Assembly: GCF_002999135.1 (NCBI RefSeq)
Contig: NZ_CP027229.1
Span: 1,384,001-1,448,000, forward strand
Direction of reading: 5' to 3'
DNA length: 64,000 bases
Source of the DNA: Capnocytophaga sp. oral taxon 878
GTDB taxonomy: Bacteria; Bacteroidota; Bacteroidia; Flavobacteriales; Flavobacteriaceae
Each line of letters starts with the position of its first letter. The first letter of the stretch is position 1. The notes beneath the pieces are model-generated. The model saw only the letters and a program-made list of their open reading frames with translations. It made no database searches and was not told where the DNA came from. Position numbers and translations under genes: made by a program. Below are positions 501-26,433 of this stretch, one piece after another.

Positions 501-540
501 AAATAGCGTACAGCTCTCCTTGCTGTACGCTATTTTTTAC
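501..540. terminator. Bidirectional intrinsic terminator
   Basis: A 14-bp perfect stem (501-514 paired with 522-535, core AATAGCGTACAGC) with a 7-base loop is followed by TTTTTT on the plus strand and preceded by A-rich sequence. It sits between the convergent nuclease gene ending at 497 and the methylase fragment ending at 540, so it can stop transcription from both sides. Confidence 0.85.
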
Positions 541-1505
541 TATTCCATAGGTCTTATCATTTTCTCAATATAGGCTATTTCTTCAGGGGTAAGCCCATAT
601 TTTTTATATAGTTTTTCATCTGTCCACTCCTCATCAAAGTTTTGTTGAGGTACAAATTGATAAAACTCTTTGGTTGAGTGTTGGGTATTTTTCTTTAAAG
701 TTAAGCAGAAATGTAGAAATTTAGTCCCTATATATTGCATTACATTCTCACACTGTTTTTTAGTAGCAAAAGGACCTATTACTAAGTAGGTTTCTGTACA
801 GCAAGAATTAGGCTCAGCATAAATAGGATTAACTTTATCAGTCTTGCTGTCGCCACTTCCTACAGCATAAGGAACAATTACTTTATGCTCTTTTATCCAA
901 TGTTGATTTTTTAAAACTCCTTCTTTCTTAATATATCCAACTCCTCCATTCACATAGATTTTAATAGCTCCTTCAAACGGTTCACTTTCTCCTTTAAAAT
1001 AGGTTCTTAATCCAAAAGGTTTTGCTGAACTCATCAATTCACTAAAACTTTTTTCATTAAAAGATTGTATTTTTCTCAGAATAGGAATAGCTTCATTATA
1101 TCTGATAAAAACATCTGCATTATTTTCTTTAAGAGGACGCTTCAAGGCTGACACACAGATTCCATTTTCATAAGTACGAATAAGACAATCTCCTTTATAT
1201 TCCTTATCCCAAAGAAAATAATTAACACCTCCTTTGATTTCTATTGAAGGAAATACCTCTGAAGCATTCGGATAATCGTGTATTACTTTTATTCGTTTAT
1301 CTTTAAGCATTGCTTTGCGAAAATCATCTAACCCTTTGCCACCAGCGAACCACCTACTAGGGGTAATCATACTAATGTATTTAGGATTGAGTTTCATAGC
1401 TTGTTGAATAAACAACTGATAAATAGGCTTTGCACTAGCTTGTGCCCCTCCGTCCATTACCTGATAGGGTGGATTTCCTATAATAGCGTCTATAACAAGT
1501 TTTTC
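540..1505 (-). pseudogene. 5'-truncated Eco57I-type N6-adenine DNA methylase fragment (possible silent cassette)
   Basis: The open frame runs from just after an in-frame stop (1506-1508) and reads EKLVIDAIIGNPPYQVMDGG, so the adenine-methylase catalytic motif NPPY lies about 10 codons inside. The first ATG (1457) comes only after that motif, so it is unlikely to be a real start. The rest (ITPSRWFAGGKG, then the SIEIKGGVNYFLWDKEY stretch and about 190 more residues) matches the region downstream of NPPY in Eco57I-type methylases, including target recognition. The SAM-binding motif I and everything N-terminal are absent, so the fragment cannot methylate DNA as it stands. It abuts a divergently transcribed tyrosine recombinase. 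Truncation right at the conserved catalytic motif, next to a recombinase, is what a silent cassette of a shuffling methylase looks like; simple decay is the alternative. Confidence 0.75.
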
Positions 1506-1510
1506 TTATA

Positions 1511-1552
1511 TTGTAACCACTATAATATAAAATTCAAACAATATGGTTACAA
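1511..1552. repeat. 9-bp inverted repeat spanning the recombinase start codon
   Basis: TTGTAACCA at 1511-1519 is the exact reverse complement of TGGTTACAA at 1544-1552, with a 24-bp AT-rich spacer between. The right arm covers the recombinase ATG (1543-1545) and the left arm lies just before the truncated end of the methylase frame. It could be a recombinase binding site or an operator controlling the divergent pair; the spacer is longer than the 6-8 bp normal for a tyrosine-recombinase core site. Confidence 0.5.
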
Positions 1553-2346
1553 CCTTTGAAACTGCTCTCAAAGAGAGCCAAATGGCAGAAAATACCATCA
1601 CTGCCTATCTATATGCTGTAAACGATTTCTACGGTAAGTACAAATCCCTCAGCAAGAAAAACCTTTTGCTCTACAAAACATACCTTATCGAGCATTTTAA
1701 ACCTAAAACGGTGAACTTGCGCATTCAAGCACTGAATAAGTTTTTGGAACATATCGGTAAGCCTAAACTTCGACTTAAATCAGTAAAGGTGCAGCAACGC
1801 ACCTATTTAGAAAATGTGATCAGTCAGGCAGATTACCTCTTTTTAAAAGAACAACTCCGAAAAGAAGAAAACCCAATGTGGTATTTTGTAGTGCGCTTTT
1901 TGGCAGCTACAGGAGCAAGGGTAAGCGAGCTTATCCAAATAAAAGTAGAACACGTAAAAGTTGGCTATTTCGATCTATACACTAAAGGAGGCAAAGTGCG
2001 CCGCCTATTCATCCCGCTACAGTTACGTGAGGAGACTATAAAATGGCTTACAAAAAAGCAAAAAACTTCAGGCTATCTTTTTGTCAATCGATTAGGAGAA
2101 CGTATCACTACACGTGGCATTGCACAAAAACTCAAACTTTTTGCTGAAAGATATGGTCTCAATCCTAAAGTCGTCTACCCACATTCATTCAGACATAGAT
2201 ATGCTAAAAACTTCTTGGAAGCTTTTAACGACATCTCTCTCCTTGCCGACCTTATGGGGCACGAAAGTATTGAGACTACCCGTATTTATCTAAGGCGAAC
2301 AGCTTCAGAACAGCAAGCTATTGTAGATAGGATTATCACTTGGTAA
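1543..2346 (+). CDS. Tyrosine recombinase (site-specific integrase/invertase)
   Basis: This 267-residue protein has an N-terminal SAM-like DNA-binding domain (about 1-90) and a C-terminal catalytic domain. All catalytic residues of the family are visible: R126 in GARVSEL, K148/K151 in TKGGKVRR, H214 and R217 in HSFRHRYA, H240 in LMGHESIETT, and nucleophile Y249 in RIYLRR. It cleaves and rejoins DNA through a 3'-phosphotyrosyl intermediate. The short length and the motif around NFLEAFNDISLLADLMGHESIETTRIYLRRT resemble, from memory, recombinases encoded within phase-variable type I restriction loci rather than long phage or conjugative-element integrases. It lies back to back with a truncated methylase, so shuffling of methylase specificity segments is the most attractive role. 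This is inference, since no partner site pair is seen in the window. Confidence 0.9.
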   Translation: MVTTFETALKESQMAENTITAYLYAVNDFYGKYKSLSKKNLLLYKTYLIEHFKPKTVNLRIQALNKFLEHIGKPKLRLKSVKVQQRTYLENVISQADYLFLKEQLRKEENPMWYFVVRFLAATGARVSELIQIKVEHVKVGYFDLYTKGGKVRRLFIPLQLREETIKWLTKKQKTSGYLFVNRLGERITTRGIAQKLKLFAERYGLNPKVVYPHSFRHRYAKNFLEAFNDISLLADLMGHESIETTRIYLRRTASEQQAIVDRIITW

Positions 2347-2934: not shown

Positions 2935-5900
2935 CTATTTTTTAAGGTATAACCAACCTGTTTTGGTTTGCTTATTATTAGTTTCGTCATAGTATTCAAT
3001 GACATAATAATAAGTACCTTGAGGAAGTTTATCAGAGGCTTCTATGGTAACACGTCCATCAGAAATACCTTTAAACACTTTGGTTACATTATTATAACCT
3101 TCTACTTTGAAAACTTCAACACCCCAACGGTTGTAAATACGTACAATATTGTTAGGATAGCTTTCAATTCCTGCTATATGGAAATGATTGTTAGCTGGAC
3201 TTCCACTAAGCGATATACCATTGTAGATAATCATTTCCTTAACTACTTGTACTGTTACAGTGGTTGTTGCACAACCGCTAGTATTACAAATTTCATACTC
3301 AAAGGTATCTGTACCTACAAATCCTGTATTAGGTCGATATTCTACTGTATTATCAGCATTAACAACTACATTACCATTAGCTGGAGGGGTTACCACATTA
3401 GGAGTAGTAGCTCCATTAAGTGTATCATTTGCTAAGACAACAATAGTTATCGGTGTATTCATTGCTGTTGTAGCACTATCGGTTACTGCTATTGGCAATG
3501 TTGGAGTAAAGGTTCCTGAGACTGTTACTACCAAGGTTTGAGTTCCTGTACAATTAGTTGGATTCAATATCTCACAGTAACTATAAGTAATAGTATAGTT
3601 CCCTGCTGGGGTATTAGCTGGAATTGTTATCTTACCTGTATCCTTATCTAACGTAGGTACTGTTGTTCCTGTTGGGTTAGTAACTGTCAATGTTACATTT
3701 CCGCCTACTCCTACCGTTGGGGTTACAGTGCTGCCTATCTTATCATTATTTAAGATACTCGGCGTGGTTTGAGTTGATGTACTTGGAGCGGCTGTAATTG
3801 GGTCTGGCGTTACCGTAATCGTTGGTATTCCTACCTTAATCACTGCGGTAGCTGTTCTACAGTTACTACTTGGATTAAGTGACTCACACTCTTTATAAGT
3901 GATACTATAAGTACCTGCTGGGGTACCTGCTGGAATGGTTACCTTACCATCGTTAGGATTCAATTCTGGCACTTTTGCTCCTGTCCTTACTGGAGTAGCT
4001 GGTACTACATTGGTAATAGTTACTGTGCCTCCTACTCCCGCTGTCGGTACATTACCATTCAAACGATCATTAGTCAATACACTAGTTGTAGTTTGTGTTG
4101 TCAATCCATCTGGTATATTGAAGGTATCATTATCTACTGTAAGAGTTACTGCTCCTACTGTTACTACCAACGTTTGAGTTCCTGTACAGTTAGTTGGGTT
4201 CAATACCTCACAGTAACTGTAAGTAATAGTATAGCTTCCTGCTGGGGTATTAGCTGGAATAGTTACTTTTCCTGTATTAGGAGCAAGGGTCGGTTTATTA
4301 CCTGGTCCACTTGGGTTAGTAACTGTCAATGTTACATTACCTCCTACTCCTACCGTTGGGGTTACCGTACTGCCTATCTTATCATTATTTAAGATACTTG
4401 GCGTGGTTTGAGTTGATGTACTTGGAGCGGCTGTAATTGGGTCTGGTGTTACCGTAATCGTTGGTACTCCTACCTTAATCACTGCGGTAGCTGTTCTACA
4501 GTTACTACTTGGATTAAGTGACTCACACTCTTTATAAGTGATAGTATAAGTACCTGCTGGAGTATTAGCTGGGATAGTTACCTTACCATCGTTAGGATTC
4601 AATTCTGGTACTTTTGCTCCTGTCCTTACTGGAGTAGCTGGTACTACATTGGTAATGGTTACTGTGCCTCCTACTCCCGCTGTCGGTACATTACCATTCA
4701 AACGATCATTAGTCAATACACTAGTTGTGGTTTGTGTTGTCAATCCATCTGGTATATTGAAGGTATCATTATCTACTGTAAGAGTTACTGCTCCTACTGT
4801 TACTACCAAGGTTTGAGTTCCTGTACAATTAGTTGGATTCAATACCTCACAGTAACTGTAAGTAATAGTATAACTGCCTGCTGGGGTATTAGCTGGAATT
4901 GTTACCTTACCTGTATCCTTATCTAACGTAGGTACTGTTGTTCCTGTTGGGTTAGTAACTGTCAATGTTACATTTCCGCCTACTCCTACCGTTGGGGTTA
5001 CCGTGCTGCCTATCTTATCATTATTTAAGATACTTGGCGTGGTTTGAGTTGATGTACTTGGAGCGGCTGTAATTGGGTCTGGTGTTACCGTAATCGTTGG
5101 TACTCCTACCTTAATCACTGCGGTAGCTGTTCTACAGTTACTACTTGGATTAAGTGACTCACACTCTTTATAAGTAATCGTATAAGTACCTGCTGGGGTA
5201 CCTGCTGGAATGGTTACCTTACCATCGTTAGGATTCAATTCTGGTACTTTTGCTCCTGTCCTTACTGGAGTAGCTGGTACTACATTGGTAATAGTTACTG
5301 TGCCTCCTACTCCTGCTGTCGGTACATTACCATTCAAACGGTCATTAGTCAATACACTAGTTGTAGTTTGTGTTGTCAAACCATCTGGTATATTAAAGAT
5401 ATCATTATCTACTGTAAGAGTTACTGCTCCTACTGTTACTACCAACGTTTGAGTTCCTGTACAGTTGGTTGGGTTCAATACTTCACAGTAACTGTAAGTA
5501 ATAGTATAACTGCCTGCTGGGGTATTAGCTGGAATAGTTACTTTTCCTGTATTTGGATCAAGGGTCGGTTTATTACCTGGTCCACTTGGGTTAGTAACTG
5601 TCAATGTTACATTTCCGCCTACTCCTACCGTTGGGGTTACAGTGCTGCCTATCTTATCATTATTTAAGATACTCGGCGTGGTTTGAGTTGATGTACTTGG
5701 AGCGGCTGTAATTGGGTCTGGCGTTACCGTAATCGTTGGTATTCCTACCTTAATCACTGCGGTAGCTGTTCTACAGTTACTACTTGGATTAAGTGACTCA
5801 CACTCTTTATAAGTGATACTATAAGTACCTGCTGGGGTACCTGCTGGAATGGTTACCTTACCATCGTTAGGATTCAATTCTGGCACTTTTGCTCCTGTCC

Positions 5901-8900
5901 TTACTGGAGTAGCTGGTACTACATTGGTAATAGTTACTGTGCCTCCTACTCCCGCTGTCGGTACATTACCATTCAAACGATCATTAGTCAATACACTAGT
6001 TGTAGTTTGTGTTGTCAATCCATCTGGTATATTGAAGGTATCATTATCTACTGTAAGAGTTACTGCTCCTACTGTTACTACCAACGTTTGAGTTCCTGTA
6101 CAGTTAGTTGGGTTCAATACCTCACAGTAACTGTAAGTAATAGTATAGCTTCCTGCTGGGGTATTAGCTGGAATAGTTACTTTTCCTGTATTAGGAGCAA
6201 GGGTCGGTTTATTACCTGGTCCACTTGGGTTAGTAACTGTCAATGTTACATTACCTCCTACTCCTACCGTTGGGGTTACCGTACTGCCTATCTTATCATT
6301 ATTTAAGATACTTGGCGTGGTTTGAGTTGATGTACTTGGAGCGGCTGTAATTGGGTCTGGTGTTACCGTAATCGTTGGTACTCCTACCTTAATCACTGCG
6401 GTAGCTGTTCTACAGTTACTACTTGGATTAAGTGACTCACACTCTTTATAAGTGATAGTATAAGTACCTGCTGGAGTATTAGCTGGGATAGTTACCTTAC
6501 CATCGTTAGGATTCAATTCTGGTACTTTTGCTCCTGTCCTTACTGGAGTAGCTGGTACTACATTGGTAATGGTTACTGTGCCTCCTACTCCCGCTGTCGG
6601 TACATTACCATTCAAACGATCATTAGTCAATACACTAGTTGTGGTTTGTGTTGTCAATCCATCTGGTATATTGAAGGTATCATTATCTACTGTAAGAGTT
6701 ACTGCTCCTACTGTTACTACCAAGGTTTGAGTTCCTGTACAATTAGTTGGATTCAATACCTCACAGTAACTGTAAGTAATAGTATAACTGCCTGCTGGGG
6801 TATTAGCTGGAATTGTTACCTTACCTGTATCCTTATCTAACGTAGGTACTGTTGTTCCTGTTGGGTTAGTAACTGTCAATGTTACATTTCCGCCTACTCC
6901 TACCGTTGGGGTTACCGTGCTGCCTATCTTATCATTATTTAAGATACTTGGCGTGGTTTGAGTTGATGTACTTGGAGCGGCTGTAATTGGGTCTGGTGTT
7001 ACCGTAATCGTTGGTACTCCTACCTTAATCACTGCAGTAGCTGTTCTACAATTACTACTTGGATTAAGTGACTCACACTCTTTATAAGTGATAGTATAAG
7101 TACCTGCTGGGGTACCTGCTGGAATGGTTACCTTACCATCGTTAGGATTCAATTCTGGTACTTTTGCTCCTGTCCTTACTGGAGTAGCTGGTACTACATT
7201 GGTAATAGTTACTGTGCCTCCTACTCCTGCTGTCGGTACATTACCATTCAAACGATCATTAGCCAATACACTAGTTGTGGTTTGTGTTGTCAATCCATCT
7301 GGTATATTAAAGATATCATTATCTACTGTAAGAGTTACTGCTCCTACTGTTACTACCAACGTTTGAGTTCCTGTACAGTTAGTTGGGTTCAATACTTCAC
7401 AGTAACTGTAAGTAATAGTATAGCTTCCTGCTGGGGTATTAGCTGGAATAGTTACTTTTCCTGTATTTGGATCAAGGGTCGGTTTATTACCTGGTCCACT
7501 TGGGTTAGTAACTGTCAATGTTACATTTCCGCCTACTCCTACCGTTGGGGTTACAGTGCTGCCTATCTTATCATTATTTAAGATACTCGGCGTGGTTTGA
7601 GTTGATGTACTTGGAGCGGCTGTAATTGGGTCTGGTGTTACCGTAATCGTTGGTACTCCTACCTTAATCACTGCAGTAGCTGTTCTACAATTACTACTTG
7701 GATTAAGTGACTCACACTCTTTATAAGTGATAGTATAAGTACCTGCTGGGGTACCTGCTGGAATGGTTACCTTACCATCGTTAGGATTCAATTCTGGTAC
7801 TTTTGCTCCTGTCCTTACTGGAGTAGCTGGTACTACATTGGTAATAGTTACTGTGCCTCCTACTCCTGCTGTCGGTACATTACCATTCAAACGGTCATTA
7901 GTCAATACACTAGTTGTAGTTTGTGTTGTCAAACCATCTGGTATATTAAAGATATCATTATCTACTGTAAGAGTTACTGCTCCTACTGTTACTACCAACG
8001 TTTGAGTTCCTGTACAGTTGGTTGGGTTCAATACTTCACAGTAACTGTAAGTAATAGTATAACTGCCTGCTGGGGTATTCGCTGGAATAGTTACTTTTCC
8101 TGTATTAGGAGCAAGGGTCGGTTTATTACCTGGTCCACTTGGGTTAGTAACTGTCAATGTTACATTTCCGCCTACTCCTACCGTTGGGGTTACCGTGCTG
8201 CCTATCTTATCATTATTTAAGATACTCGGCGTGGTTTGAGTTGATGTACTTGGAGCGGCTGTAATTGGGTCTGGTGTTACCGTAATCGTTGGTACTCCTA
8301 CCTTAATCACTGCGGTAGCTGTTCTACAGTTACTACTTGGATTAAGTGACTCACACTCTTTATAAGTAATCGTATAAGTACCTGCTGGGGTACCTGCTGG
8401 AATGGTTACCTTACCATCGTTAGGATTCAATTCTGGTACTTTTGCTCCTGTCCTTACTGGAGTAGCTGGTGTAATATTGGTAATACTCACAGTTCCACTA
8501 GGTCCTGCGGTTGGTACATTACCGTTCAAACGGTCATTATTCAACACACTTCCTGTGGTAGTTGCCGTAAGTCCATTACCTACTGTGAATGTATCACTTA
8601 CTACAGTAAGAGAAGTAACACCTAACTTAATAGTTGATGTTTTAGTAAGTACATTGCCAAAGGTATCTTTTGCTACGAAGGTAACGGTAATAACTCCACC
8701 AGATACATTGCAAAGATTAGCAGGTACTATATAATCATTTGTTATAGTTGCTATTGCTCCACAAGCATCGGTAGCAGTAGCTGTATTAAGCCAGTTATTG
8801 ATAGCTGTAGTAGCAGTAGCCGAGTTGCATACTATATTCAGAGCAGCTGGAGCATTGAAAGTAGGAACTGTAGTGTCATTTACTGTTAAGGTTACTGTTA

Positions 8901-11823
8901 CAAGTCCACTAGTACAACCTGTAGAGCTAAGAGCTCGTACATAAGCTGTTTTAGTAGTACGAGTAGCTACATTAGTATTAATACTAGGTGCTGTAGTACT
9001 TGAAACAGTAGCAGTAGAGGTAGCATACCAAAGCAAGGTAGTACCAGTAGGTGCAGTTACATAGTCAGCAAACAACACATTATTGTTAGTTGCTGTTGGA
9101 CAAAGAGTTCGATTGCCTGTAAGAGTAGGTAAAGCCACAGAAGGCAATTTAGTAAGTGTCGCTTCTTGTGAAGTAGCAGTTACAACGATACCTGCTGCAA
9201 ACTGATAACTATACTCTACTCTGTATTTATAGTTAGTTGTTCCAGCAATTGTTAAAGTTGTTGTTCCTCCACTTGGAATAGTCCCTGCAAAAGAAGGTAT
9301 ATCCGTCCAAGTTGTTCCATTGCTACTTTGTTGCCATTTATAATTAATATTACCTGTAGCATCTTTTAATTGAGCTTTAGAAGTAAAAATAGCAGTTGCA
9401 TTATCACAAATAGTTTGGTTTTGTGGTTGTGTTGTAATGCTAATAGTCTCAGCAGGATTAATAGAACTAGGACAAAGTTCTACTAATACTCCTGAAGAAA
9501 CTGTACCTATATCTTTTACTCTCAACTCAGTAAAAGGAGTAGCAGAAGTCACCCTTATTGCTACGTCATTAATATTATCAGCAGAACCAATCCTAGGATT
9601 AGATTTTACTATATTTCCTGTCAAAGAAGCAGGCATTCCTCCTTTACTTTGTATACAATCATATACTTTAGTAAAAGTAGGCGTTCCATTATTAGTAGTA
9701 ATACTTACTTCATCATATTGACCTGCAGGGCTACCCATCACCATTAACCACACTTCTGCACTATTAACAGGCTTACTAAAAGTATATATTACCTCTTTAC
9801 TAAAGGTTACGTTAGTAGAATGTATAATAGTATAATTATGATAAGTAGAACCACTACAATAAGTTAATGGGTCTGTATTTCCATATACCAAATTAGATTT
9901 TGAAGGCTCTGAATAAGTACGAGTTACTACAACATTACCCATTACCGCTGTTGCTCCATTGGGAGAAGCTGTAGAAAACTGGGGAGCAGGCTTAGCAACA
10001 CAAGCTGCTGTAGTAGCTTCTGCTCTTCCTTTTTTATCAGTATAAGTTTTTTGACAAGTACCTTTTTTGACTTTACTTACAGAGAGTTCTAAAGTTTGGT
10101 TTACAGTTCTAGATGGTACATTATATTTGCCTGCAACATCAAGCGTTTGGGTTTGCTCTGCTTCATTCCCAACCTTAAAAGTTACTTGTGCACCTGGTGT
10201 TCCTTCTATCACAAAACTTACAGCTGTATTATCTCCTTGCTTAAACACCAAAGGAGTAGCTGTTACTTGAGTAACTTCAACATCATTTATAGTTAGAGTA
10301 GCTTCATTAGAATAGCGTACAATTTCTGAAGAAAACTCAGTTAAATTCTTATATATATATTTAATTCGTATATTAGCTTGATTATAAGCTAGATTTGCTA
10401 ATTCTGCCTCATTAAAAGAAACTGTACTCCCACTAATTTTATTATCTTCTATTGCAATAGTCTGCCAAGTACCTCCAGTTTTCTTAGCTTGCAATTCATA
10501 TTTAAAAGTACCTCCACTAAAATTTGCAGTAGCTTTAGCTGTATAAGAGGGAGTTGTACCTGCACATACATTATTAGCTGCAGGTTGCATATCTATTGTA
10601 AAAACATCATTTTCAGCAGCTTTAGTAACAGAAGTAGGACAAAGAGCTACTAAGTATCCGTTGCCTGTACTCCCCATATCAGTAAGTGTAATTTTACTAA
10701 AAGGTTTAGTAGAAGTCACTTTTATTCCTACATCAGTAGTAAGTTTTCTATTATTGATACTCCCTACTATATTACCATTAATAGTAGACGCTATAGGATT
10801 ACAGTCATAACTTTTAGTAAGAGTTATATTACCTCCCCCATTTACCTCAAATTTAGCTTTATCAAAAGTATTTATCTGCATATTATCACCAAAAGCAAGT
10901 AAGAAAATCTCAGCACTTTTAATAGGAGTGCTAAACTCATAAACTATTTTCTTACTATCTTTTAGCAAAGGATCTTTACTTGGATAAGTAATATTTGATC
11001 CACAATGAGCCCCAGAAAAAGAAGTTGTTTTATTAATACCTATATCTGCTCTTCGAGTAATAGTCATTCCTGCTAAAGAAACTGTTTGAGTAGGAAAGCT
11101 ACTAAATGGATCTCCTATAGAGGGCGGAGAACAAGTGCTACCAGCAATAGGTGTAGCAATAGAAGCCAAACAAATTTCCACAAAAAAACCATATCCTCCT
11201 GTTTGTCCAGAAGGCTCCAAAAACTCTAAAGTAAGCTCTGTAAAAGGAGATGAAGAAGAAATCCCTACTTTAGCATCTGTAGTTTTTTCATTCTCAGATG
11301 ACACTTCATTACCAGAAATCGTAACTGCTCCTGTTTCACAAGTAGAACGTAAAGCTAAGTTTATATCTCCATTATTTACAGTAATCTTTACAACATCTTT
11401 ATGAGGTGTATGTTGCTTCCAAGTTTCTCGTGTACCATTGAACCCAAAAGCAGCAAAGAAAATCTCTACATCATTAACTGGCTTACTAAACTTATAGGTA
11501 ATCTTATTTACCTTGTTAGAATCCATAAAAGGATATTTCTTACCTCCAAAAGTTGTTTTACGATTTTTACCACAATAGGTCTCCATTGGAGTCGAATCCT
11601 CATCAGAATACATAATCTTATCTCCATGATGCCCTCGTACTTCTAATATACGAGTTACCCTAACGCCTCTAACGTCAGCATACTCCTCTACCCTATTATT
11701 ATCTCCACTAATCCTTGTATAGATCACAGGTTCAGGCATTGTAGCACAGGTTTGAGCTTCTACATACCCAAATGAGAGCAAAAAAAGTACAATCATTAAG
11801 TTAATAACAGCTATTTTTTTCAT
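2935..11823 (-). CDS. Giant SprB-like repetitive surface adhesin with T9SS type B C-terminal signal
   Basis: The start is placed at the internal MKKIAVINLM (11823), which gives a clean signal peptide ending YVEAQ; a longer frame to 11883 adds 20 charged residues before the signal. The ~2962-residue protein has, in order: three diverged copies of a ~180-residue N-terminal module (about residues 26-225, 231-398 and 608-785) separated by Ig-like segments; an Ig-like and a HYR-like region; eight two-part tandem repeats (about 1065-2765) in which halves containing TYTITYKECESLNPSSNC and SYTITYSYCEVLNPTNC alternate; a cadherin/VCBS-like domain (LANDTLNG then GTDTFEYEICN); and a type B C-terminal domain (IVRIYNRWGVEVF...GTYYYVIEYY...KTGWLYLKK). 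Type B domains direct export by the type IX system and usually need a SprF-type partner, and a porP/sprF gene is encoded upstream. SprB, the gliding adhesin, has the same design. A role in gliding or adhesion is inferred. Confidence 0.85.
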   Translation of the reverse strand: MKKIAVINLMIVLFLLSFGYVEAQTCATMPEPVIYTRISGDNNRVEEYADVRGVRVTRILEVRGHHGDKIMYSDEDSTPMETYCGKNRKTTFGGKKYPFMDSNKVNKITYKFSKPVNDVEIFFAAFGFNGTRETWKQHTPHKDVVKITVNNGDINLALRSTCETGAVTISGNEVSSENEKTTDAKVGISSSSPFTELTLEFLEPSGQTGGYGFFVEICLASIATPIAGSTCSPPSIGDPFSSFPTQTVSLAGMTITRRADIGINKTTSFSGAHCGSNITYPSKDPLLKDSKKIVYEFSTPIKSAEIFLLAFGDNMQINTFDKAKFEVNGGGNITLTKSYDCNPIASTINGNIVGSINNRKLTTDVGIKVTSTKPFSKITLTDMGSTGNGYLVALCPTSVTKAAENDVFTIDMQPAANNVCAGTTPSYTAKATANFSGGTFKYELQAKKTGGTWQTIAIEDNKISGSTVSFNEAELANLAYNQANIRIKYIYKNLTEFSSEIVRYSNEATLTINDVEVTQVTATPLVFKQGDNTAVSFVIEGTPGAQVTFKVGNEAEQTQTLDVAGKYNVPSRTVNQTLELSVSKVKKGTCQKTYTDKKGRAEATTAACVAKPAPQFSTASPNGATAVMGNVVVTRTYSEPSKSNLVYGNTDPLTYCSGSTYHNYTIIHSTNVTFSKEVIYTFSKPVNSAEVWLMVMGSPAGQYDEVSITTNNGTPTFTKVYDCIQSKGGMPASLTGNIVKSNPRIGSADNINDVAIRVTSATPFTELRVKDIGTVSSGVLVELCPSSINPAETISITTQPQNQTICDNATAIFTSKAQLKDATGNINYKWQQSSNGTTWTDIPSFAGTIPSGGTTTLTIAGTTNYKYRVEYSYQFAAGIVVTATSQEATLTKLPSVALPTLTGNRTLCPTATNNNVLFADYVTAPTGTTLLWYATSTATVSSTTAPSINTNVATRTTKTAYVRALSSTGCTSGLVTVTLTVNDTTVPTFNAPAALNIVCNSATATTAINNWLNTATATDACGAIATITNDYIVPANLCNVSGGVITVTFVAKDTFGNVLTKTSTIKLGVTSLTVVSDTFTVGNGLTATTTGSVLNNDRLNGNVPTAGPSGTVSITNITPATPVRTGAKVPELNPNDGKVTIPAGTPAGTYTITYKECESLNPSSNCRTATAVIKVGVPTITVTPDPITAAPSTSTQTTPSILNNDKIGSTVTPTVGVGGNVTLTVTNPSGPGNKPTLAPNTGKVTIPANTPAGSYTITYSYCEVLNPTNCTGTQTLVVTVGAVTLTVDNDIFNIPDGLTTQTTTSVLTNDRLNGNVPTAGVGGTVTITNVVPATPVRTGAKVPELNPNDGKVTIPAGTPAGTYTITYKECESLNPSSNCRTATAVIKVGVPTITVTPDPITAAPSTSTQTTPSILNNDKIGSTVTPTVGVGGNVTLTVTNPSGPGNKPTLDPNTGKVTIPANTPAGSYTITYSYCEVLNPTNCTGTQTLVVTVGAVTLTVDNDIFNIPDGLTTQTTTSVLANDRLNGNVPTAGVGGTVTITNVVPATPVRTGAKVPELNPNDGKVTIPAGTPAGTYTITYKECESLNPSSNCRTATAVIKVGVPTITVTPDPITAAPSTSTQTTPSILNNDKIGSTVTPTVGVGGNVTLTVTNPTGTTVPTLDKDTGKVTIPANTPAGSYTITYSYCEVLNPTNCTGTQTLVVTVGAVTLTVDNDTFNIPDGLTTQTTTSVLTNDRLNGNVPTAGVGGTVTITNVVPATPVRTGAKVPELNPNDGKVTIPANTPAGTYTITYKECESLNPSSNCRTATAVIKVGVPTITVTPDPITAAPSTSTQTTPSILNNDKIGSTVTPTVGVGGNVTLTVTNPSGPGNKPTLAPNTGKVTIPANTPAGSYTITYSYCEVLNPTNCTGTQTLVVTVGAVTLTVDNDTFNIPDGLTTQTTTSVLTNDRLNGNVPTAGVGGTVTITNVVPATPVRTGAKVPELNPNDGKVTIPAGTPAGTYSITYKECESLNPSSNCRTATAVIKVGIPTITVTPDPITAAPSTSTQTTPSILNNDKIGSTVTPTVGVGGNVTLTVTNPSGPGNKPTLDPNTGKVTIPANTPAGSYTITYSYCEVLNPTNCTGTQTLVVTVGAVTLTVDNDIFNIPDGLTTQTTTSVLTNDRLNGNVPTAGVGGTVTITNVVPATPVRTGAKVPELNPNDGKVTIPAGTPAGTYTITYKECESLNPSSNCRTATAVIKVGVPTITVTPDPITAAPSTSTQTTPSILNNDKIGSTVTPTVGVGGNVTLTVTNPTGTTVPTLDKDTGKVTIPANTPAGSYTITYSYCEVLNPTNCTGTQTLVVTVGAVTLTVDNDTFNIPDGLTTQTTTSVLTNDRLNGNVPTAGVGGTVTITNVVPATPVRTGAKVPELNPNDGKVTIPANTPAGTYTITYKECESLNPSSNCRTATAVIKVGVPTITVTPDPITAAPSTSTQTTPSILNNDKIGSTVTPTVGVGGNVTLTVTNPSGPGNKPTLAPNTGKVTIPANTPAGSYTITYSYCEVLNPTNCTGTQTLVVTVGAVTLTVDNDTFNIPDGLTTQTTTSVLTNDRLNGNVPTAGVGGTVTITNVVPATPVRTGAKVPELNPNDGKVTIPAGTPAGTYSITYKECESLNPSSNCRTATAVIKVGIPTITVTPDPITAAPSTSTQTTPSILNNDKIGSTVTPTVGVGGNVTLTVTNPTGTTVPTLDKDTGKITIPANTPAGNYTITYSYCEILNPTNCTGTQTLVVTVSGTFTPTLPIAVTDSATTAMNTPITIVVLANDTLNGATTPNVVTPPANGNVVVNADNTVEYRPNTGFVGTDTFEYEICNTSGCATTTVTVQVVKEMIIYNGISLSGSPANNHFHIAGIESYPNNIVRIYNRWGVEVFKVEGYNNVTKVFKGISDGRVTIEASDKLPQGTYYYVIEYYDETNNKQTKTGWLYLKK
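3520..8620 (-). repeat. Eight tandem ~636/639-bp repeats within the adhesin gene, with a 1914-bp higher-order period
   Basis: Landmark sequences recur at 3935, about 4572, 5210, 5849, about 6486, 7124, 7763 and 8402, giving units of 636 or 639 bp (212 or 213 codons). The two lengths reflect a one-residue difference in a loop (PSGPGNKPTL versus PTGTTVPTL). Above this, the block at about 3672-5119 appears identical by eye to 5586-7033, offset by exactly 1914 bp (three units), pointing to a very recent duplication or gene conversion. The outermost N-terminal unit (about 8400-8620) is the most diverged. Confidence 0.9.
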
Positions 11824-11900
11824 TTTTGTTCTTAATTTTCTTATCATCAATCTATTTTTAATAATCCGTGGCATACTCCACACTCTATTATTTTAGGGTA

Positions 11901-12295: not shown

Positions 12296-14269
12296 TTACA
12301 TCGATATGATAATAAACTCACTCCTACGGTTTGCTTGGTGTTGTTCCTCTGTACAAGGCACATCGTTACCACAATCATTCACCAGCTGAGTCTCTCCATA
12401 TCCTTTACCTGTGATACGGTTTTTCTTAATACCATGCGAAATTATCCATTTCACTGTCGATTTGGCTCGCCTTTGTGAAAGAGCTAAATTATACTTATCC
12501 GATCCTCTACTATCTGTATGCAATCGTACATCTACTTTCATTGTAGGGTGTTCTTTCATTATAGCTACTATCTTTGCTAGCTGTTCAGCAGCATCTTTCC
12601 TGATATTAGCTTTATCGTAATCAAAATAAATATTATCTATCTGTAACACCTTAGACAGATCGTTCCCTATAACAACCTCTACCTTCTTATTCATAGGAAT
12701 AGGGCTTAGCTTTATCTCAGCATTAGTATCCTTACTGCTATTTAAGGCTAAAGATTGTTGGTTAGCACTATAATTATCTTTTTCAGCCTTTAAAAGTAGT
12801 TGCAAATCACCACAATCTGCAGTGTAATTAAAAGTAAAATTACCATTAATGTCAGCCGTAGTCTCTTCTATAAGAGTATTATTATGTGTAAAAAGAGTAA
12901 CTTTAGCTTGCGGTAATAATTCATTGGTAGTCGCATCACGTACTACTCCACTAAGTTTATAACTACAGGTAAAGCGCAAAGGCGTATGTTCATAAAAACT
13001 ATAAATATCATCACTACCACGTCCTTCAGGTCTATTAGATGTAAGATAACCTATACGGGTCTGACTATTAATCACATAACAAAAATCATCTTCAGCACTA
13101 TTTGCAGGTCTTCCTATATTAATAGGTTTGGTAATAGGATCTCCCTTTTCATTCAGTTTAACAGCAAATATATCCAAGCCTCCCAAACCAGGAAAACCGT
13201 CAGAAGAGTAATATAATATATTATCATCTGAAATAAAAGGGAAAGACTCTCGTCCAGGAGTGTTTATCTTATCTCCTAAGTTTTCAGGTTTACCATAGCC
13301 TCCACTTTTTAAGATAGGTGCTCGGTAAATATCCGAAGCCCCAAAAGTACCCTTCATATCTGATGTAAAATAAATATATTTCCCATCAGGACTCAGTGCA
13401 GGGTGAGCCACACTATGAATATTGCTATTGAAAGGCATTTCTTGTACGTCACCCCATTTACCGTGCTTATCTTTAGTAGCTTTAAAAATTTTAAGCAATA
13501 CTGTATGGTCACCATTGGTCTTCACTTCATTATTAATGAAGTTATTACGGGTGAAATACATTGTATTCCCATCCTTGGTAAAAGCTGCTGTCGATTCATT
13601 AAATTTAGTGTTAATCCCATTTAGCTTAGCCTTTCGCGAAGCTTGCAAACTATCAGTATTAGCCTCATAAAGAGTATAGAAGTTATCTCCTGTCCATTCC
13701 GAACGACGTTTCAAAAAACCACTTTTTGTAGTAGCATACACTATATTATCACCATAAAAAGCTGTGCCATATTCCGATTTTCGTGTGTTAATCTTTAACA
13801 GAGTCAACTCCATCCTACCCGAATTGCGTTTAATTTCGGCCTGATAATCACGGTTCTTAAGAAATAATTGTGCACGTACATCATTCTTATCAGCAAGTGT
13901 CACAAACTGATTCATTATTTTATCCGAAGTATCATAATCCCCTGTTGTCTTTAGGGTTTGTGCATATCGATAATAATACTCAGGTTTTATATTGAAAGGC
14001 TTACCTTTAGCATCTTTACCATTAAAAAGTTTAGCATACCACTTATTAGCCAAAGTATAATCAGCATTATAGTAATAAGCATTCCCCAAGTTTTCTAAAA
14101 GTTCTTGTGGTTCTACACCTTTACGGGCTATGCTTTCGTATGCATTTATAGCTTCTACATAATTCAAGTTTTTGTAGTAGCTAGCTGCTTTCTGCAAGGC
14201 TTCTTTTTCATTCTGTGCAAAAGTAACTTGCAATAATAAGATAAAAATTGCTAAAAAAAGTTTTTTCAT
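12296..14269 (-). CDS. PorE-like OmpA-family protein (TPR, beta-propeller, CarboxypepD-reg, OmpA), copy 2
   Basis: This 657-residue protein has a signal peptide ending QVTFAQ. Domain order: TPR-like repeats (about 20-140, including NLGNAYYYNADY), a PD40/WD40-type propeller (about 150-430, with HPALSPDGKYIYFTSDM and FPFISDDNILYYSSDG), a carboxypeptidase-regulatory-like domain (about 440-525) and a C-terminal OmpA peptidoglycan-binding domain (about 540-655, with VRLHTDSRGSDKYNLALSQRR). This four-domain architecture and length are those of PorE, the periplasmic T9SS component that anchors PorP to peptidoglycan. It lies 82 bp downstream of a close paralogue and in the same apparent operon as a PorP/SprF gene. 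It probably tethers a PorP/SprF-type protein to the cell wall. Whether it is a core T9SS part or a cargo-specific copy cannot be told here. Confidence 0.85.
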   Translation of the reverse strand: MKKLFLAIFILLLQVTFAQNEKEALQKAASYYKNLNYVEAINAYESIARKGVEPQELLENLGNAYYYNADYTLANKWYAKLFNGKDAKGKPFNIKPEYYYRYAQTLKTTGDYDTSDKIMNQFVTLADKNDVRAQLFLKNRDYQAEIKRNSGRMELTLLKINTRKSEYGTAFYGDNIVYATTKSGFLKRRSEWTGDNFYTLYEANTDSLQASRKAKLNGINTKFNESTAAFTKDGNTMYFTRNNFINNEVKTNGDHTVLLKIFKATKDKHGKWGDVQEMPFNSNIHSVAHPALSPDGKYIYFTSDMKGTFGASDIYRAPILKSGGYGKPENLGDKINTPGRESFPFISDDNILYYSSDGFPGLGGLDIFAVKLNEKGDPITKPINIGRPANSAEDDFCYVINSQTRIGYLTSNRPEGRGSDDIYSFYEHTPLRFTCSYKLSGVVRDATTNELLPQAKVTLFTHNNTLIEETTADINGNFTFNYTADCGDLQLLLKAEKDNYSANQQSLALNSSKDTNAEIKLSPIPMNKKVEVVIGNDLSKVLQIDNIYFDYDKANIRKDAAEQLAKIVAIMKEHPTMKVDVRLHTDSRGSDKYNLALSQRRAKSTVKWIISHGIKKNRITGKGYGETQLVNDCGNDVPCTEEQHQANRRSEFIIISM

Positions 14270-14351
14270 TGTGCTTTACTTAGAAATTAGGAAATAGAAA
14301 TTCTATTTACAGATTGTCCCCTCTCTTTTGGAAAGGGGGAACAAATATTTT

Positions 14352-16304
14352 TTACATTGAGATTACAATAAACTCACTACGGCGGTTAGCTTGATGCTCT
14401 TCTTCTGTACAAGGTACTCCATTAGAACATCTATTAACTAGTTGCTTCTCACCATAACCTTTAGCTTTTAATCTACTACGGCTGATACCCTGTTTTACTA
14501 TCCATTCTAAAGTCGATTTTGCCCTGCGGTCAGATAGTTTAAGGTTATAAGCATCAGCTCCACGACTATCAGTATGTGAGCGAATATCAATCTTCATCTT
14601 AGGATATTCACGCATTACTTCTACAATCTTAGTAAGTTCTACAGCTGCATCAGGGCGTATATTAGCTTTGTCGTAATCAAACTTAATTTCTTTTATTTCA
14701 AATACTTTAGCTAGGTCTACCCCTTTTTGAATAGCCACTTGTCGTGGGTTCAGCAATAGTTCATAGTACACATCGCCATCCTTCTCTACCGATACATTCA
14801 CTTCAGCAGTTTCATACCTCTGTTTTTCACCTCGTAAATAGTAATAAGCATCATTACAATTCACTTTCTCAAAAGCAAAAGTACCATCAGCTTTACTCTT
14901 TTGGTTACCTACTTCCTTCATTATTTTATTTGAAAGTACTACCTTAGCATCAGTAATAATCTGTTTTGTTTTAGCATCTTTCACTACTCCTTTAAGATTT
15001 TTCTCACAAGAAAAGTATAAGGGTTTATCTTCGTGAAAGCTATAAATATCATCTTTACCTTTACCACCTGCGCGGTTAGAGCTAAGAAAACCTATTTTAC
15101 TATCACTATCAAACACAAAACAGAAGTCATCATCAGCACTATTACCAGGCATGCCTATATTTATAGGTTTAGAAGCTGTACCATCAGTACTAAATTTTAC
15201 AGCAAAAATATCCAAACCTCCCAAACCTGGTATCCCGTCTGATGAGTAATACAAAACATTTTCTTTTGAAAAGAATGGGAATGACTCGCGCCCTGCTGTA
15301 TTAATAACATTACCCAAATTTTCAGGAGTACCATATTGGTTATTCCCCAATATCTCTACACGAAAAATATCCGAATTACCAAAAGTTCCTGGCATATCCG
15401 ATGCAAAATATAAATACTTTTCATCTGGGCTCAATGCAGGGTGTGCCACATTGTATTGGTCACTATTAAAAGGTACTTCCACTACATTGCCCCAATTACC
15501 ATTTTTATCTTTGGTTGCACAAAGTATCTTCAGCAAAATAGTATTCTCAACATCAGTACCCAACCTCCTATTCACATAATTATTACGCGTGAAGTACATT
15601 GTATTACCATCCTTAGTGAATACAGGCGTTGATTCATTAAACTGAGTGTTAATAGTTGAAGAAAATGGCTTACGATTAGTCAATTTCTGCTGATTGTGCT
15701 CAGCTTCATAAAGATCATAAAAACTCTCTCCAGTCCATTGCGAAACTCCACGACGCGCTTTCTTAGCATTCGTAGCAGCAGCAAAAACTATTTTTTTATC
15801 ACCATAAAAAGCCGTCCCATATTCCGAATTTTCAGTATTTATCGAAGCGTTATTAAGCTCAAAACGTCCCGAGTTGTTCTTTATAACCTCCTGATAATCC
15901 TTATTCTCTTCATACAAAGCCGCACGGGTATCCTTTGCATTGGTAAGCTCTACAAACTTAGCCATCATCTTATCAGCTTGTGTGTAATCTCCTACCGATT
16001 TCAGCACTTGTGAGTAGCGATAGTAGTACTCAGGCTTTATATTGTACTTTCCTTCCTCAAAAAGCTTTTCATACCAAGGCTGTGCTTTTTTATATTCTGC
16101 ATTATAATAATAAGCATTCCCCAAGCTCTCCAGCATCTCTTGGTTTACATACCCTTTCTGGGCAATACGCTCATAAATCTTAATAGCGTCAATGTAAGCA
16201 AAGTTTTTGTACATCTCATTTGCCTTTTCTAGCTCACGCTCATTCTGAGCCGAAAGAAATGAGGTTCCCATTAACAAAGCTACACTTAAAGTTAATATTT
16301 TCAT
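14352..16304 (-). CDS. PorE-like OmpA-family protein (TPR, beta-propeller, CarboxypepD-reg, OmpA), copy 1
   Basis: A 650-residue paralogue of the following gene with the same order: signal peptide to FLSAQ, TPR region with LESLGNAYYYNAEYKKAQ, propeller with HPALSPDEKYLYFASDM and FPFFSKENVLYYSSDG, regulatory-like domain from about residue 430, and OmpA domain with IDIRSHTDSRGADAYNLKLS and a C-terminal NRRSEFIVISM. The D and R of the OmpA motif are those that hold diaminopimelate in the family. The two copies are alike throughout, so they arose by tandem duplication. It lies 79 bp after the PorP/SprF gene and shares its promoter. Between the two copies (14316-14341) is a short C-run/G-run imperfect hairpin, which could adjust the level of the downstream gene. 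Confidence 0.85.
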   Translation of the reverse strand: MKILTLSVALLMGTSFLSAQNERELEKANEMYKNFAYIDAIKIYERIAQKGYVNQEMLESLGNAYYYNAEYKKAQPWYEKLFEEGKYNIKPEYYYRYSQVLKSVGDYTQADKMMAKFVELTNAKDTRAALYEENKDYQEVIKNNSGRFELNNASINTENSEYGTAFYGDKKIVFAAATNAKKARRGVSQWTGESFYDLYEAEHNQQKLTNRKPFSSTINTQFNESTPVFTKDGNTMYFTRNNYVNRRLGTDVENTILLKILCATKDKNGNWGNVVEVPFNSDQYNVAHPALSPDEKYLYFASDMPGTFGNSDIFRVEILGNNQYGTPENLGNVINTAGRESFPFFSKENVLYYSSDGIPGLGGLDIFAVKFSTDGTASKPINIGMPGNSADDDFCFVFDSDSKIGFLSSNRAGGKGKDDIYSFHEDKPLYFSCEKNLKGVVKDAKTKQIITDAKVVLSNKIMKEVGNQKSKADGTFAFEKVNCNDAYYYLRGEKQRYETAEVNVSVEKDGDVYYELLLNPRQVAIQKGVDLAKVFEIKEIKFDYDKANIRPDAAVELTKIVEVMREYPKMKIDIRSHTDSRGADAYNLKLSDRRAKSTLEWIVKQGISRSRLKAKGYGEKQLVNRCSNGVPCTEEEHQANRRSEFIVISM

Positions 16305-17921: not shown

Positions 17922-21047
<3,126 letters not shown>

Positions 21048-21129: not shown

Positions 21130-22668
21130 CTATTTAACAGAATACTCTTGGTTAAAAAATACTTTTTCAGCCAATGTATCCTCTTTTTCTCGTATTTCTT
21201 TTAAAAGCAAAGCTTCCAACTGTTTGGTAATCTTTTGGTATTCTTTTTTACCATACACATTATTAAGCTCTTTAGGGTCTTTTTCTAAGTCAAAAAGCTC
21301 CCAAGTATTCACTCGTTTGTAGTAACGTATCAACTTGTAACGGTCTGTACGTACTCCAAAGTGTGGTGATACCGCGTGCTCACCATTTTCATAATAGTGA
21401 TAAAAAAGCTGATTGCGAATAGCTTTTGCTTTTTTAGCAAAAAGTGGTAAGAATGATTTCCCTTGTATATCAGCAGGCACTGGTAAGCCAGCCAATTCTA
21501 AGAAAGTAGGAGCCAAATCTATATTAAGCACAAATCCATCATTAGTAGTCCCTTTAGGAAACATCTTAGGATATGACACTATCATTGGCGTACGGAACGA
21601 CTCTTCATACATCCAACGCTTATCAAACCAGCCGTGTTCTCCCATATAGAAACCTTGATCCGACATATAGATTATTATAGTATTATCTTTCAAATTGTGC
21701 TTTTCTAAGTAATCAAGCATACGCCCTATATTCTTATCCATTGATTTTACAGTTGATAAGTAATCGCGCATATAACGTTGAAACTTCCATTTTGCCAACT
21801 CAGCTCCTGTAAGATTAGCATTATAATACTCCTGACGGATAGGATTATAGAAATCATTATAATGTGCCAATTGAGTAGCCGTCATATGGGTAAAGTTAGC
21901 ATCTCTTATCTCATCTTTCTCGCTCTTGAACATTTTAAGATCATAACCCATTACCATATCCTTACCTATAGCCATCTCTTGCAAAGCAGCAGGCTTACGA
22001 GTAGCATAATCATCAAAGAAAGTATCAGGTAGCGGGAAATTAACGTGTTCGTAAGCTCCTAATTCAGGTAAATCAGGCATCCAAGTACGGTGTACTGCTT
22101 TATGCCCTACTACAAGGCAGAAAGGTTTATTAGGATCACGACGGTCCAACCACTTCTCAGCCTCATCTTCAATAATGTTACTTACATAACCTTGCTCACG
22201 CACATATTTTTTACCCTCGATAATAAAATCAGGGTTAAAGTATCTTCCTTGATCTACTAAGATTTTAAAGAAATCAAACCCCTTAGGATCATCTCCCAAG
22301 TGATATTTACCTACCCAAGCCGTTTGGTAACCTCCTTGTTGCAAAAGATTCACAAACTGTTGTTGCGATGAGTTGTAGTGAGAAGTCTCATTGTCCATAA
22401 AACCATTTTTATGGCTGTATTTACCAGTGAGAATACAAGCCCTACTTGGCCCGCAAATAGAGTTAGTTACAAAAGCACGATTAAAACGTACCCCTTCTTT
22501 AGCCAGCCTATCTATAGCCGGTGTTGCATCGGTAGCTCCATTATTATAAGCACCAATAGTTTGATACGAATGGTCGTCCGATACAATAAGAACAATATTA
22601 GGTCTGTTTCGTTGAGCACAACCCATTGTGGCACAAACCAAACCACATAAAAGTAATACTTTTTTCAT
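21130..22668 (-). CDS. Sulfatase, family S1, exported or lipid-anchored
   Basis: The start is set at MKKVLLLCGL (22668) because the promoter -7 element at 22696-22703 lies inside the longer frame that begins at 22725, so the longer form cannot be made from it. The ~512-residue protein has a signal sequence with Cys17 (ATMGC), possibly a lipobox. Metal-binding D31/D32 lie in IVSDDHS. The sulfatase signature ICGPSRACILTG carries C72, the residue oxidised to formylglycine in active enzymes. The C-terminal half has DQGFYMGEHGWFDKRWMYEE, seen in N-acetylglucosamine-6-sulfatase-like S1 enzymes. It hydrolyses sulfate esters on host glycans; the exact substrate is inferred. A Cys-type sulfatase needs a maturase. 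The FGE-like protein nearby lacks the catalytic cysteines, so an anSME elsewhere is expected. Confidence 0.88.
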   Translation of the reverse strand: MKKVLLLCGLVCATMGCAQRNRPNIVLIVSDDHSYQTIGAYNNGATDATPAIDRLAKEGVRFNRAFVTNSICGPSRACILTGKYSHKNGFMDNETSHYNSSQQQFVNLLQQGGYQTAWVGKYHLGDDPKGFDFFKILVDQGRYFNPDFIIEGKKYVREQGYVSNIIEDEAEKWLDRRDPNKPFCLVVGHKAVHRTWMPDLPELGAYEHVNFPLPDTFFDDYATRKPAALQEMAIGKDMVMGYDLKMFKSEKDEIRDANFTHMTATQLAHYNDFYNPIRQEYYNANLTGAELAKWKFQRYMRDYLSTVKSMDKNIGRMLDYLEKHNLKDNTIIIYMSDQGFYMGEHGWFDKRWMYEESFRTPMIVSYPKMFPKGTTNDGFVLNIDLAPTFLELAGLPVPADIQGKSFLPLFAKKAKAIRNQLFYHYYENGEHAVSPHFGVRTDRYKLIRYYKRVNTWELFDLEKDPKELNNVYGKKEYQKITKQLEALLLKEIREKEDTLAEKVFFNQEYSVK

Positions 22669-22695
22669 AAAGCTATGGACGTTAAAAAAACTGCG

Positions 22696-22703
22696 CAAAG
22701 GTA
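22696..22703 (-). promoter_or_regulatory. Promoter -7 element of the sulfatase gene
   Basis: TACCTTTG on the minus strand matches TAnnTTTG. No TTG is found at the usual 19-20 bp upstream, so the -33 element is weak. Its place decides the sulfatase start codon. Confidence 0.6.
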
Positions 22704-22986
22704 CGACAACTTTTTCAATTATCATAATTTTTTCTTAAAAATTTTTTATATTTAACAAACTCACTTCTTAATCTCCTTTATAATACACCCCTGCTTTTCA
22801 AATTGTATTTATATACAACAATCTCCTTCTCCAGCTTGCTCAATACCCTCACCTTCTCTTCATTCTAACTAACGTTCTTTGTTTTACTTCCTCTCAGTAC
22901 TTATAATGATAATAAAATTAAGTTCTTAATTTTCATTTTATCTAAGTCACAAAAATAAACCAGTATTTATTAATTCTACTTCTTTG

Positions 22987-23709
22987 CTATTTTACGTTCT
23001 TTACTGTTCTGAACCCGACATACCAAGAGGCTCTTCCTTCTTTACTACGTTTAAATACATGACGTGATTTATAAGTAAAACGCGACAAATCATCAACTAT
23101 ACCACCTCCTTTCCAAACAATCGAATCTCCTTTTACACTTACACATACTTCACAAGTATTACCACTCATATCATAAATACCCAAAGCATTAGGTTTTTTA
23201 GATCGGACAGGCTGCAATCTTGATATAGGGTCTTTTTCATCACTCCACGCTACTTTCTTTACTGAATTACTACCTGCATATTTATAAGTAGCATTAGTTC
23301 CTTCCCGAAAAGCATATTCCCATTCTGCTTCTGTAGGTAATCTTTTGCCGCTCCACTTACAATAAGCCTGCATATCATCAACAGTAAGATATACCACTGG
23401 GTACAAATACCATTCCTTTTCAGGTATTAGTTTTCCATTAATATCATACTGCCAACATACTTTGGACGTTTTCTGCCCTCCTGTAATAAAAGCATAGCCT
23501 TGTTCTTCTGCAAGGGTTTTATAACCTGTTTGCTTTACAAATTCAGCAAACTGACCAATAGTGACTTCATTTTGATCAATGTAAAAATCGGCTAACTTTA
23601 CCTTTTGGTTTGTACTAGTAACATAATCTCCTCCTTTTACTAAAATCATCTTTTGTGCCAACATAGCTGGAGCTATCATTAGCAAAATAAAGGTTACAAG
23701 GTTTTTCAT
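22987..23709 (-). CDS. Exported FGE-sulfatase-fold protein without catalytic cysteines
   Basis: This 240-residue protein has a signal peptide (ending PAMLAQ) and then the formylglycine-generating-enzyme fold from about residue 20 to the end: FYIDQNEVTIGQFAEFVKQTGY, KWSGKRLPTEAEWEYAFREG, NALGIYDMSGNTCEVCVS and the terminal VGFRTVK. In true FGE two cysteines near the C-terminus bind copper and oxidise the sulfatase cysteine. In the equivalent stretch here (GGGIVDDLSRFTYKSRHVFKRS) there is none, so it should not be an active maturase. It is last in a tight operon with two beta-propeller lipoproteins (1 bp after the preceding gene) and lies about 320 bp upstream of the sulfatase start. The fold is also used for structural or ligand binding, as in GldK/GldJ of the gliding machinery. 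The role is unknown. Confidence 0.8.
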   Translation of the reverse strand: MKNLVTFILLMIAPAMLAQKMILVKGGDYVTSTNQKVKLADFYIDQNEVTIGQFAEFVKQTGYKTLAEEQGYAFITGGQKTSKVCWQYDINGKLIPEKEWYLYPVVYLTVDDMQAYCKWSGKRLPTEAEWEYAFREGTNATYKYAGSNSVKKVAWSDEKDPISRLQPVRSKKPNALGIYDMSGNTCEVCVSVKGDSIVWKGGGIVDDLSRFTYKSRHVFKRSKEGRASWYVGFRTVKNVK

Positions 23710-23710
23710 A

Positions 23711-24829: not shown

Positions 24830-24845
24830 AATCCTTTCAATAATC

Positions 24846-26063: not shown

Positions 26064-26088
26064 TTCTTTTTAGTCTTAAAAATCATCG

Positions 26089-26118
26089 CAAAGTTACGAA
26101 ATCGAAAAATAATAACAA
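26089..26118 (-). promoter_or_regulatory. Promoter of the beta-propeller/FGE-fold operon
   Basis: TTG (26116-26118), a 19-bp spacer and TAACTTTG (26089-26096) on the minus strand match the consensus. The start codon at 26063 is about 26 nt downstream of the element. Confidence 0.78.
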
Positions 26119-26433
26119 AATATTTTAACATTTTTCTACGTCAAACATACTAAAACCTCCCTCCTACCCAAGCCTTTCTCTTCTCTTCCATACTTATCCC
26201 AAACAGCAATAAAATAGTAATCAAACAACAAGTAAAAGATACCTTTCCCCTTTCCTATCTCTCCACTACCCCTCCCCTCCTCGCCTCCTATTTCTCACCT
26301 CCTCCCTAATTGCGAATTCCTCAAAAATCACCCCCACCCTCTCTATCCCCTACCCTTCAACCCATATCCCCTGATAATCAAACCATTCTATTAGTAAGAC
26401 ACCCCCAAGCACCATACAGCTATCCCTTAGAAT

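Follow-up and report, generated by a model that had tools for sequence, protein, structure and literature searches.

Type ISP restriction enzymes, such as LlaGI and LlaBIII, join helicase and methylase in one polypeptide with an Mrr-like N-terminal nuclease, and in the invertible PglX loci of BREX systems the specificity of a methylase is swapped by inversion beside a recombinase. Another group of switches comprises the Type I hsdS invertons, e.g., the pneumococcal SpnIII/cod locus (PMC7394358, PMC4948785). In Prevotella intermedia 17, the gene of the Type IIG enzyme Pin17FIII (22231-25584) is directly followed by a gene on the opposite strand, Pin17FORF9595 (25608-26525, 305 codons by count). 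Three related motifs were seen in this strain, of which one was assigned and two were left without a gene, and when the opposite-strand gene was expressed together with Pin17FIII, only the GGYGAB motif of Pin17FIII was methylated; the explanation proposed, in the passages of that report considered here, is an interaction with a helicase rather than inversion (PMC5608340).

We analyzed a stretch of 64,000 nucleotides of Capnocytophaga sp. oral taxon 878 (contig NZ_CP027229.1, positions 1,384,001-1,448,000; G000:C1:1384001-1448000), hereafter the window. A locus spanning its left border is very probably a reversible specificity switch, operating through recombinase-driven inversion of a silent and an expressed half of a helicase-methylase enzyme.

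Layout of the locus and its inverted repeat

The locus is numbered here by L003 (C1:1366001-1386000), where the L003 position minus 18000 gives the window position. The gene order in L003 is a 331-aa companion (-), the enzyme (+), the DUF1016 gene (+), the silent half (-) and the recombinase (+). The features are as follows, in window coordinates unless L003 is indicated:

L003 12410-13405, minus strand: 331-aa companion gene
L003 13438-17358, plus strand: 1306-aa enzyme (stop codon included in the coordinates), just left of the window
L003 17398-17428: Bacteroidetes-type promoter match of the DUF1016 gene, just outside the window
L003 17457-18497, plus strand: complete DUF1016/YhcG PDDEXK gene, 346 aa, inside the putative invertible segment
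3-497, plus strand: last 164 aa of the DUF1016/YhcG gene, the only part within the window
501-535 (L003 18501-18535), plus strand: terminator-like hairpin in the interval between the DUF1016 gene and the silent half
540-1505 (L003 18540-19505), minus strand: silent C-terminal half, with methylase motif IV (NPPYQ) and target-recognition region
1468-1493, minus strand: right repeat arm, identical over 26 bp to the inverted copy at L003 16378-16403 (plus strand) in the expressed gene
1506-1508, minus strand: in-frame TAA bounding the silent half on its 5' side
1509-1542, plus strand: recombinase leader, similar to leaders at the recombinases of genomes G001, G009 and G011
1543-2346 (L003 19543 onwards), plus strand: 267-aa tyrosine recombinase, XerA-like and with its active-site residues

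A preliminary description of this DNA had reported a methylase fragment that opens behind an in-frame stop at 1506-1508, reaches NPPYQ about 10 codons later and lacks both the N-terminal part of the methylase and any plausible start. Our analysis agrees in each respect: the stop is a TAA, the frame behind it runs for 321 codons without an internal stop (540-1505, minus strand), NPPY begins at residue 11 (codons 1464-1475), no start codon lies ahead of the motif, and the Pfam Eco57I match starts only at profile position 76 of 171. The YhcG/DUF1016 nuclease on the other side of the fragment was likewise found as described, its gene being complete (346 aa, 164 aa of them in the window), and so was the complete tyrosine recombinase, with R126, H214, R217, H240 and Y249 all present; its best NCBIfam model is XerA_Arch, which scores below the curated cut-off. 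The recombinase indeed adjoins the fragment on the opposite strand, but the gap between them is 34 bp (1509-1542) rather than 35 bp.

At E 0.001, the sole relative of the fragment in the 2.99-Mb genome is the adjoining full-length gene, which lies 1.2 kb away in inverted orientation, just outside the window; no third copy was found in the genome at this threshold. This gene is what the preliminary description proposed to look for, namely a full-length homologue with DNA in common with the fragment around NPPYQ: the two copies are joined by an inverted repeat that is perfect over 26 bp, matches at 45 of 47 bp overall and covers the codons of IDAIIGNPP. Homology of the two halves ends sharply on the 5' side, and as wholes the halves are 46% identical in protein. 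A full-length homologue of the predicted Eco57I type exists, but it is a helicase-methylase fusion, not a plain Eco57I methylase. We count the inverted full-length partner and the perfect 26-bp repeat as evidence for the switch.

The expressed partner (1306 aa for the gene as given; 1319 aa in the ORF list, where it begins at TTG) consists of a ResIII helicase, an Eco57I-type methylase and a variable C-terminal half; in the 1319-aa ORF, PF04851 spans residues 159-326 and PF07669 residues 927-1074. The methylase is of the N6-adenine type, and the N-terminal domain, which gave a weak T5orf172/GIY-YIG-like match, is possibly a GIY-YIG-like nuclease domain. The PADLOC model REase_MTase_IIG matches the enzyme in 3 stretches, the best of which covers only 989-1318. 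Neither the enzyme (E 0.01) nor the companion (E 1) was matched in sequence searches of solved structures, and neither structural model had a Foldseek match at 0.001.

Under the switch reading, the expressed gene would yield one polypeptide with a possible nuclease, the ResIII helicase, the methylase and the target-recognition half. The recombinase encoded beside the silent half would recombine the two repeat copies in the IIGNPPYQ codons and invert a 3116-bp segment, arms included; the silent half would then join the helicase part in frame, the former active half would fall silent, and the cell would methylate and cut DNA at another recognition sequence. Three points here are our inference: the recombinase as the agent, switching inside a population, and differing targets of the two halves. 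The shuffling locus envisaged in the preliminary description is supported as far as recombinase-linked cassette exchange is concerned, but is best read as a single reversible 3.1-kb inversion carrying DUF1016 rather than as a general shuffle.

The DUF1016 gene is taken as a passenger of the invertible segment because it has its own promoter match and a terminator-like site; its orientation-dependent expression, considered because the gene flips with the segment, was set aside for the same reasons. Matches to TTTG-N19-TANNTTTG, the Bacteroidetes-type promoter consensus, number 3 in L003 versus 0.6 expected and 9 in the window versus 1.5, and terminator-like sites in the scanned stretch number 3 versus 1.9 expected by chance.

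Directly adjoining the recombinase is the gene of a 2982-aa repetitive protein (window 2935-11883, minus strand), in which a 324-bp unit is repeated in tandem about 15 times (3582-8415). Upstream of the locus, two stretches (L003 9264-9563 and 11271-11570) are 87% identical to each other, the former with a transposase zinc-ribbon match of the IS1595 type, and look like remnants of an insertion element.

The flipped state in Capnocytophaga bilenii and the silent half

The fragment was matched in 3 of 20 genomes of the genus, the source included; one of the matching genomes (G002) carries a 501-aa methylase of another layout. In Capnocytophaga bilenii (G001), the silent half of the source is fused in frame within a 1297-aa enzyme, the two copies of the half being 98% identical in amino acids. 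At the DNA level, the helicase side (90%) and the recombinase side (83%) of the two loci are collinear, and the cassette together with DUF1016 is inverted (96.7%), with the breaks falling at the repeat. The half expressed in the source is replaced in C. bilenii (44% amino acid identity over 300 codons), a replacement which spares the last ~140 bases. The alternative junction that the preliminary description proposed to look for is carried by C. bilenii, with the same cassette expressed, as judged from assemblies of the related species. Both orientations exist in nature, in related species rather than in one strain, and this flipped state was observed directly, as were the repeat, both halves and the recombinase with its active-site residues. 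A segment inverted between the same flanks with breaks at the repeat counts in favour of the switch; knowledge of the two states from assemblies of different species counts against it. The partner, the repeat and the expression of the same cassette in a related species together support the earlier reading of the fragment as a silent cassette.

A fragment that has no start before the motif and is devoid of the first part of the methylase domain could also be a decaying pseudogene left by duplication. However, its 321 codons are open throughout, and near-identical halves occupy the expressed position in the homologues P0013 (99.4%) and P0033 (99.7%). Moreover, comparison with the expressed half of C. 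bilenii gave dN 0.0105 and dS 0.134 (dN/dS 0.078), which, judging from these rates, shows that the silent copy is under purifying selection and not in decay. On these three grounds, the decay reading appears extremely improbable and was dropped. It is also highly unlikely that a 305-aa part is made alone from an internal ATG and lends its recognition region to an enzyme in trans: although predicted 305-aa proteins of the same kind are present in the database (P0122-P0124, P0128), such a product would begin after NPPY, and the similarly placed opposite-strand gene of P. intermedia 17, when alone, yielded no methylated motif according to the passages considered (PMC5608340).

The single arrangement seen in each assembly would fit an old inversion that is now locked, with the locus flipped in evolution and the recombinase inactive here. 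We consider this unlikely, given that the recombinase has its active-site residues and that its gene, with dN/dS 0.050, is by this measure under purifying selection; that the silent half is open and similarly constrained (dN/dS 0.078); and that the repeat is free of mismatches, its arms matching each other within a genome even at positions where relatives differ. Specifically, both arms carry GACGCT in the source and both GACACT in C. bilenii, and the same agreement within genomes, with related genomes differing, was found for GATGCC/GACGCC. For the reversible switch, we count this agreement of the arms along with the drop of identity at NPPY and the related recombinases at hsdS loci (see below). 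In an alignment of 12 relatives, residues 981-990 have an identity of 0.97 and residues 1001-1010 one of only 0.41, the drop lying around the NPPY of the enzyme at residue 987. Counted against the switch is the codon identity, which in the first 17 residues is not significantly higher than in the rest (13/17 versus 71/126; p 0.19), the first 8 codons all being identical in this comparison. In a sample of 397 genomes of the family, which did not include C. bilenii, the 17-base repeat core was present in 4 genomes and occurred on both strands only in the source genome.

Recombinases and recognition halves among relatives

Genome contigs were scanned for relatives; of the 178 detected, we kept the best 80 and added the source locus. 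A readable NPPY site is present in 80 of the resulting 81 loci (all but L073), and recombinases, sought by similarity to that of the source (>100 bits), were found in six: L003, L017 (C. bilenii), L023, L027, L033 and L065. The core ATTATAGGAAATCC is present in the expressed gene of 5 of these 6 loci versus 0 of the 74 others (Fisher 2.5e-7, a value overstated by kinship and cut contigs). Indeed, L023 and L027 are 98% identical in DNA and hence not independent; the 74 recombinase-free loci include contigs ending soon after the enzyme gene; L026, where the contig breaks off within an inverted half and the site is one base off the core, is counted among the 74; and at least 4 kb of downstream sequence is available for 53 of 80 loci, 5 of which have the recombinase. 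The cut contigs, the similarity-based recombinase search and the kinship that together inflate this statistic are counted against the switch.

Bacteroides graminisolvens (L033) and Prevotella corporis (L065) each carry two extra halves, i.e., three cassettes; two of the three halves correspond between these species at 82%, inverted, and the third differs (46%). Two repeats are present in each locus, the inner one measuring 28 or 33 nt and the outer one 160 nt at 73-76%. This second natural inversion, together with the tie of the core to the recombinase, is counted for the switch. Counted against it is that the expressed gene of L033 is devoid of the core and that the flip spans the outer repeat, so that this flip may have proceeded without the core. 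Two extra halves are also present in L066, from a contig labelled Akkermansia, on the same strand (14194-15258 and 18345-19466) and with an ATG just before the motif; no recombinase was matched in this locus.

The recognition halves, as compared here, are a mosaic pool. Of 120 listed homologues, 32 combine a complete half with a front part of 84% identity or more, and the recognition halves of these 32 enzymes fall into 10 types at 80%; P0002 carries the active half of the source (98.8%). Such mosaicism, as well as the replacement of one half in each species pair (G000/G001 and L033/L065), would be consistent with the silent half donating sequence through gene conversion or homologous (RecA) recombination, with the recombinase incidental. 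This reading is distinctly unlikely in view of the short perfect stretch of 26 bp, the tie of the core to the recombinase and the presence of the same recombinase lineage beside hsdS inversion loci; a RecA-type route may, nevertheless, exchange halves between species. Relatives were also found in 87 plasmid records, all at <60% identity, with 42 covering at least 80%.

The 331-aa companion is a conserved, methylase-like protein without NPPY, present in 2 of the 20 genomes of the genus. Its gene lies upstream of the enzyme gene and on the same strand in 76 of the 80 surveyed loci, the exceptions being L017 (C. bilenii), where it is divergent, as it is in the source locus, and three loci where it is cut or absent. 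No inverted repeat of at least 20 nt joining it to the enzyme gene was found. With the strand nearly constant and no such repeat, the companion was dropped as a candidate for a further switchable half.

At E 1e-30, the recombinase was detected in 8 of the 20 genomes of the genus. In G002, G007, G008, G009 and G013 (L112-L116), a Type I-like arrangement with inverted repeats lies beside a recombinase 61-90% identical to that of the source. Methylase_S was confirmed in 4 of these 5 loci, the exception being G007, whose single scanned ORF was unmatched. The two loci scanned for HsdM, those of G009 and G002, both contain its domains. Thus, predicted hsdS inversion loci flanked by related recombinases are present in four other Capnocytophaga genomes and probably in a fifth. 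The G009 recombinase is 90% identical to that of the source and 93% to that of C. bilenii; that of G011 (98% identical) is located at a contig start, with upstream bases resembling those of G009. The hsdS repeat of G009, TTCCTATTATGAGAAGTT, matches CTATTATAGGAAAT of the source at 11 of 14 positions in the same orientation, which occurs in shuffles at a frequency of 0.0014 (0.0066 for either orientation). The recombinase-side arm in G009 is the best match to the source site in 19 kb (23/28; next, 18), and the second hsdS arm shares the core only. In G002, G007, G008, G013 and the contig end of G011, the best matches to the 28-mer site (17-19) are no better than expected by chance, the highest value in 60 shuffles being 20.

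These findings are suggestive of one recombinase lineage serving both hsdS and fused-enzyme loci. We would put at about even the chances that this Capnocytophaga lineage is a portable specificity-switching module, acting by inversion on Type I hsdS cassettes in some species and on C-terminal halves of fused helicase-methylases in others, its short site being fitted into unrelated coding DNA, IIGNPPYQ of the methylase and SYYEKF of HsdS. If so, the inner and outer repeats in B. graminisolvens and P. corporis would allow three specificities.

Comparison with known systems

Among the matches listed from the open-access literature (titles, abstract starts and passages), none describes inversion in this type of enzyme. 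The arrangement of Pin17FIII, an enzyme gene followed by an opposite-strand gene, is alike by description rather than by sequence (PMC5608340). By analogy, Pin17FIII and Pin17FORF9595 may form a similar switch that has so far escaped notice, and methylation motifs left unassigned, as in P. intermedia 17, may be due to invertible halves.

With the BREX PglX loci, the locus would share the swap of specificity by inversion beside a recombinase; BREX models are absent from the PADLOC matches listed for five locus proteins (for DUF1016, the best 25 of 34). Like the Type ISP enzymes, the expressed partner combines helicase and Eco57I-type methylase in one polypeptide (PF04851, PF07669). However, its N-terminal domain looks, from a weak match, T5orf172/GIY-YIG-like rather than Mrr-like, and the locus has a conserved companion methylase-like gene and a putatively invertible specificity. 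The hsdS invertons resemble it in the inverted silent specificity cassette, the inverted repeats in coding DNA and the recombinase encoded at the locus. Unlike in hsdS invertons, the locus proteins scanned here are devoid of Methylase_S (PF01420), the unit to be swapped is the C-terminal half of the methylase itself, motif IV included, the helicase belongs to the same polypeptide, and catalytic codons fall within the repeat. The locus would thus function in the manner of an hsdS inverton without belonging to that class.

If the switch reading is true, sister cells would mark and cut DNA at different sequences: with helicase, methylase, recognition and probably nuclease held together, a single flip would alter methylation and cutting together. 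This could also explain why some methylome motifs have no gene assigned to them, and short 'Eco57I methylase' fragments could be parts of switches rather than debris. Inversion-type specificity switching, a kind already known and documented for Type I hsdS, would here take place inside a single-polypeptide, Type ISP-like enzyme, and it is this combination that appears to be new.
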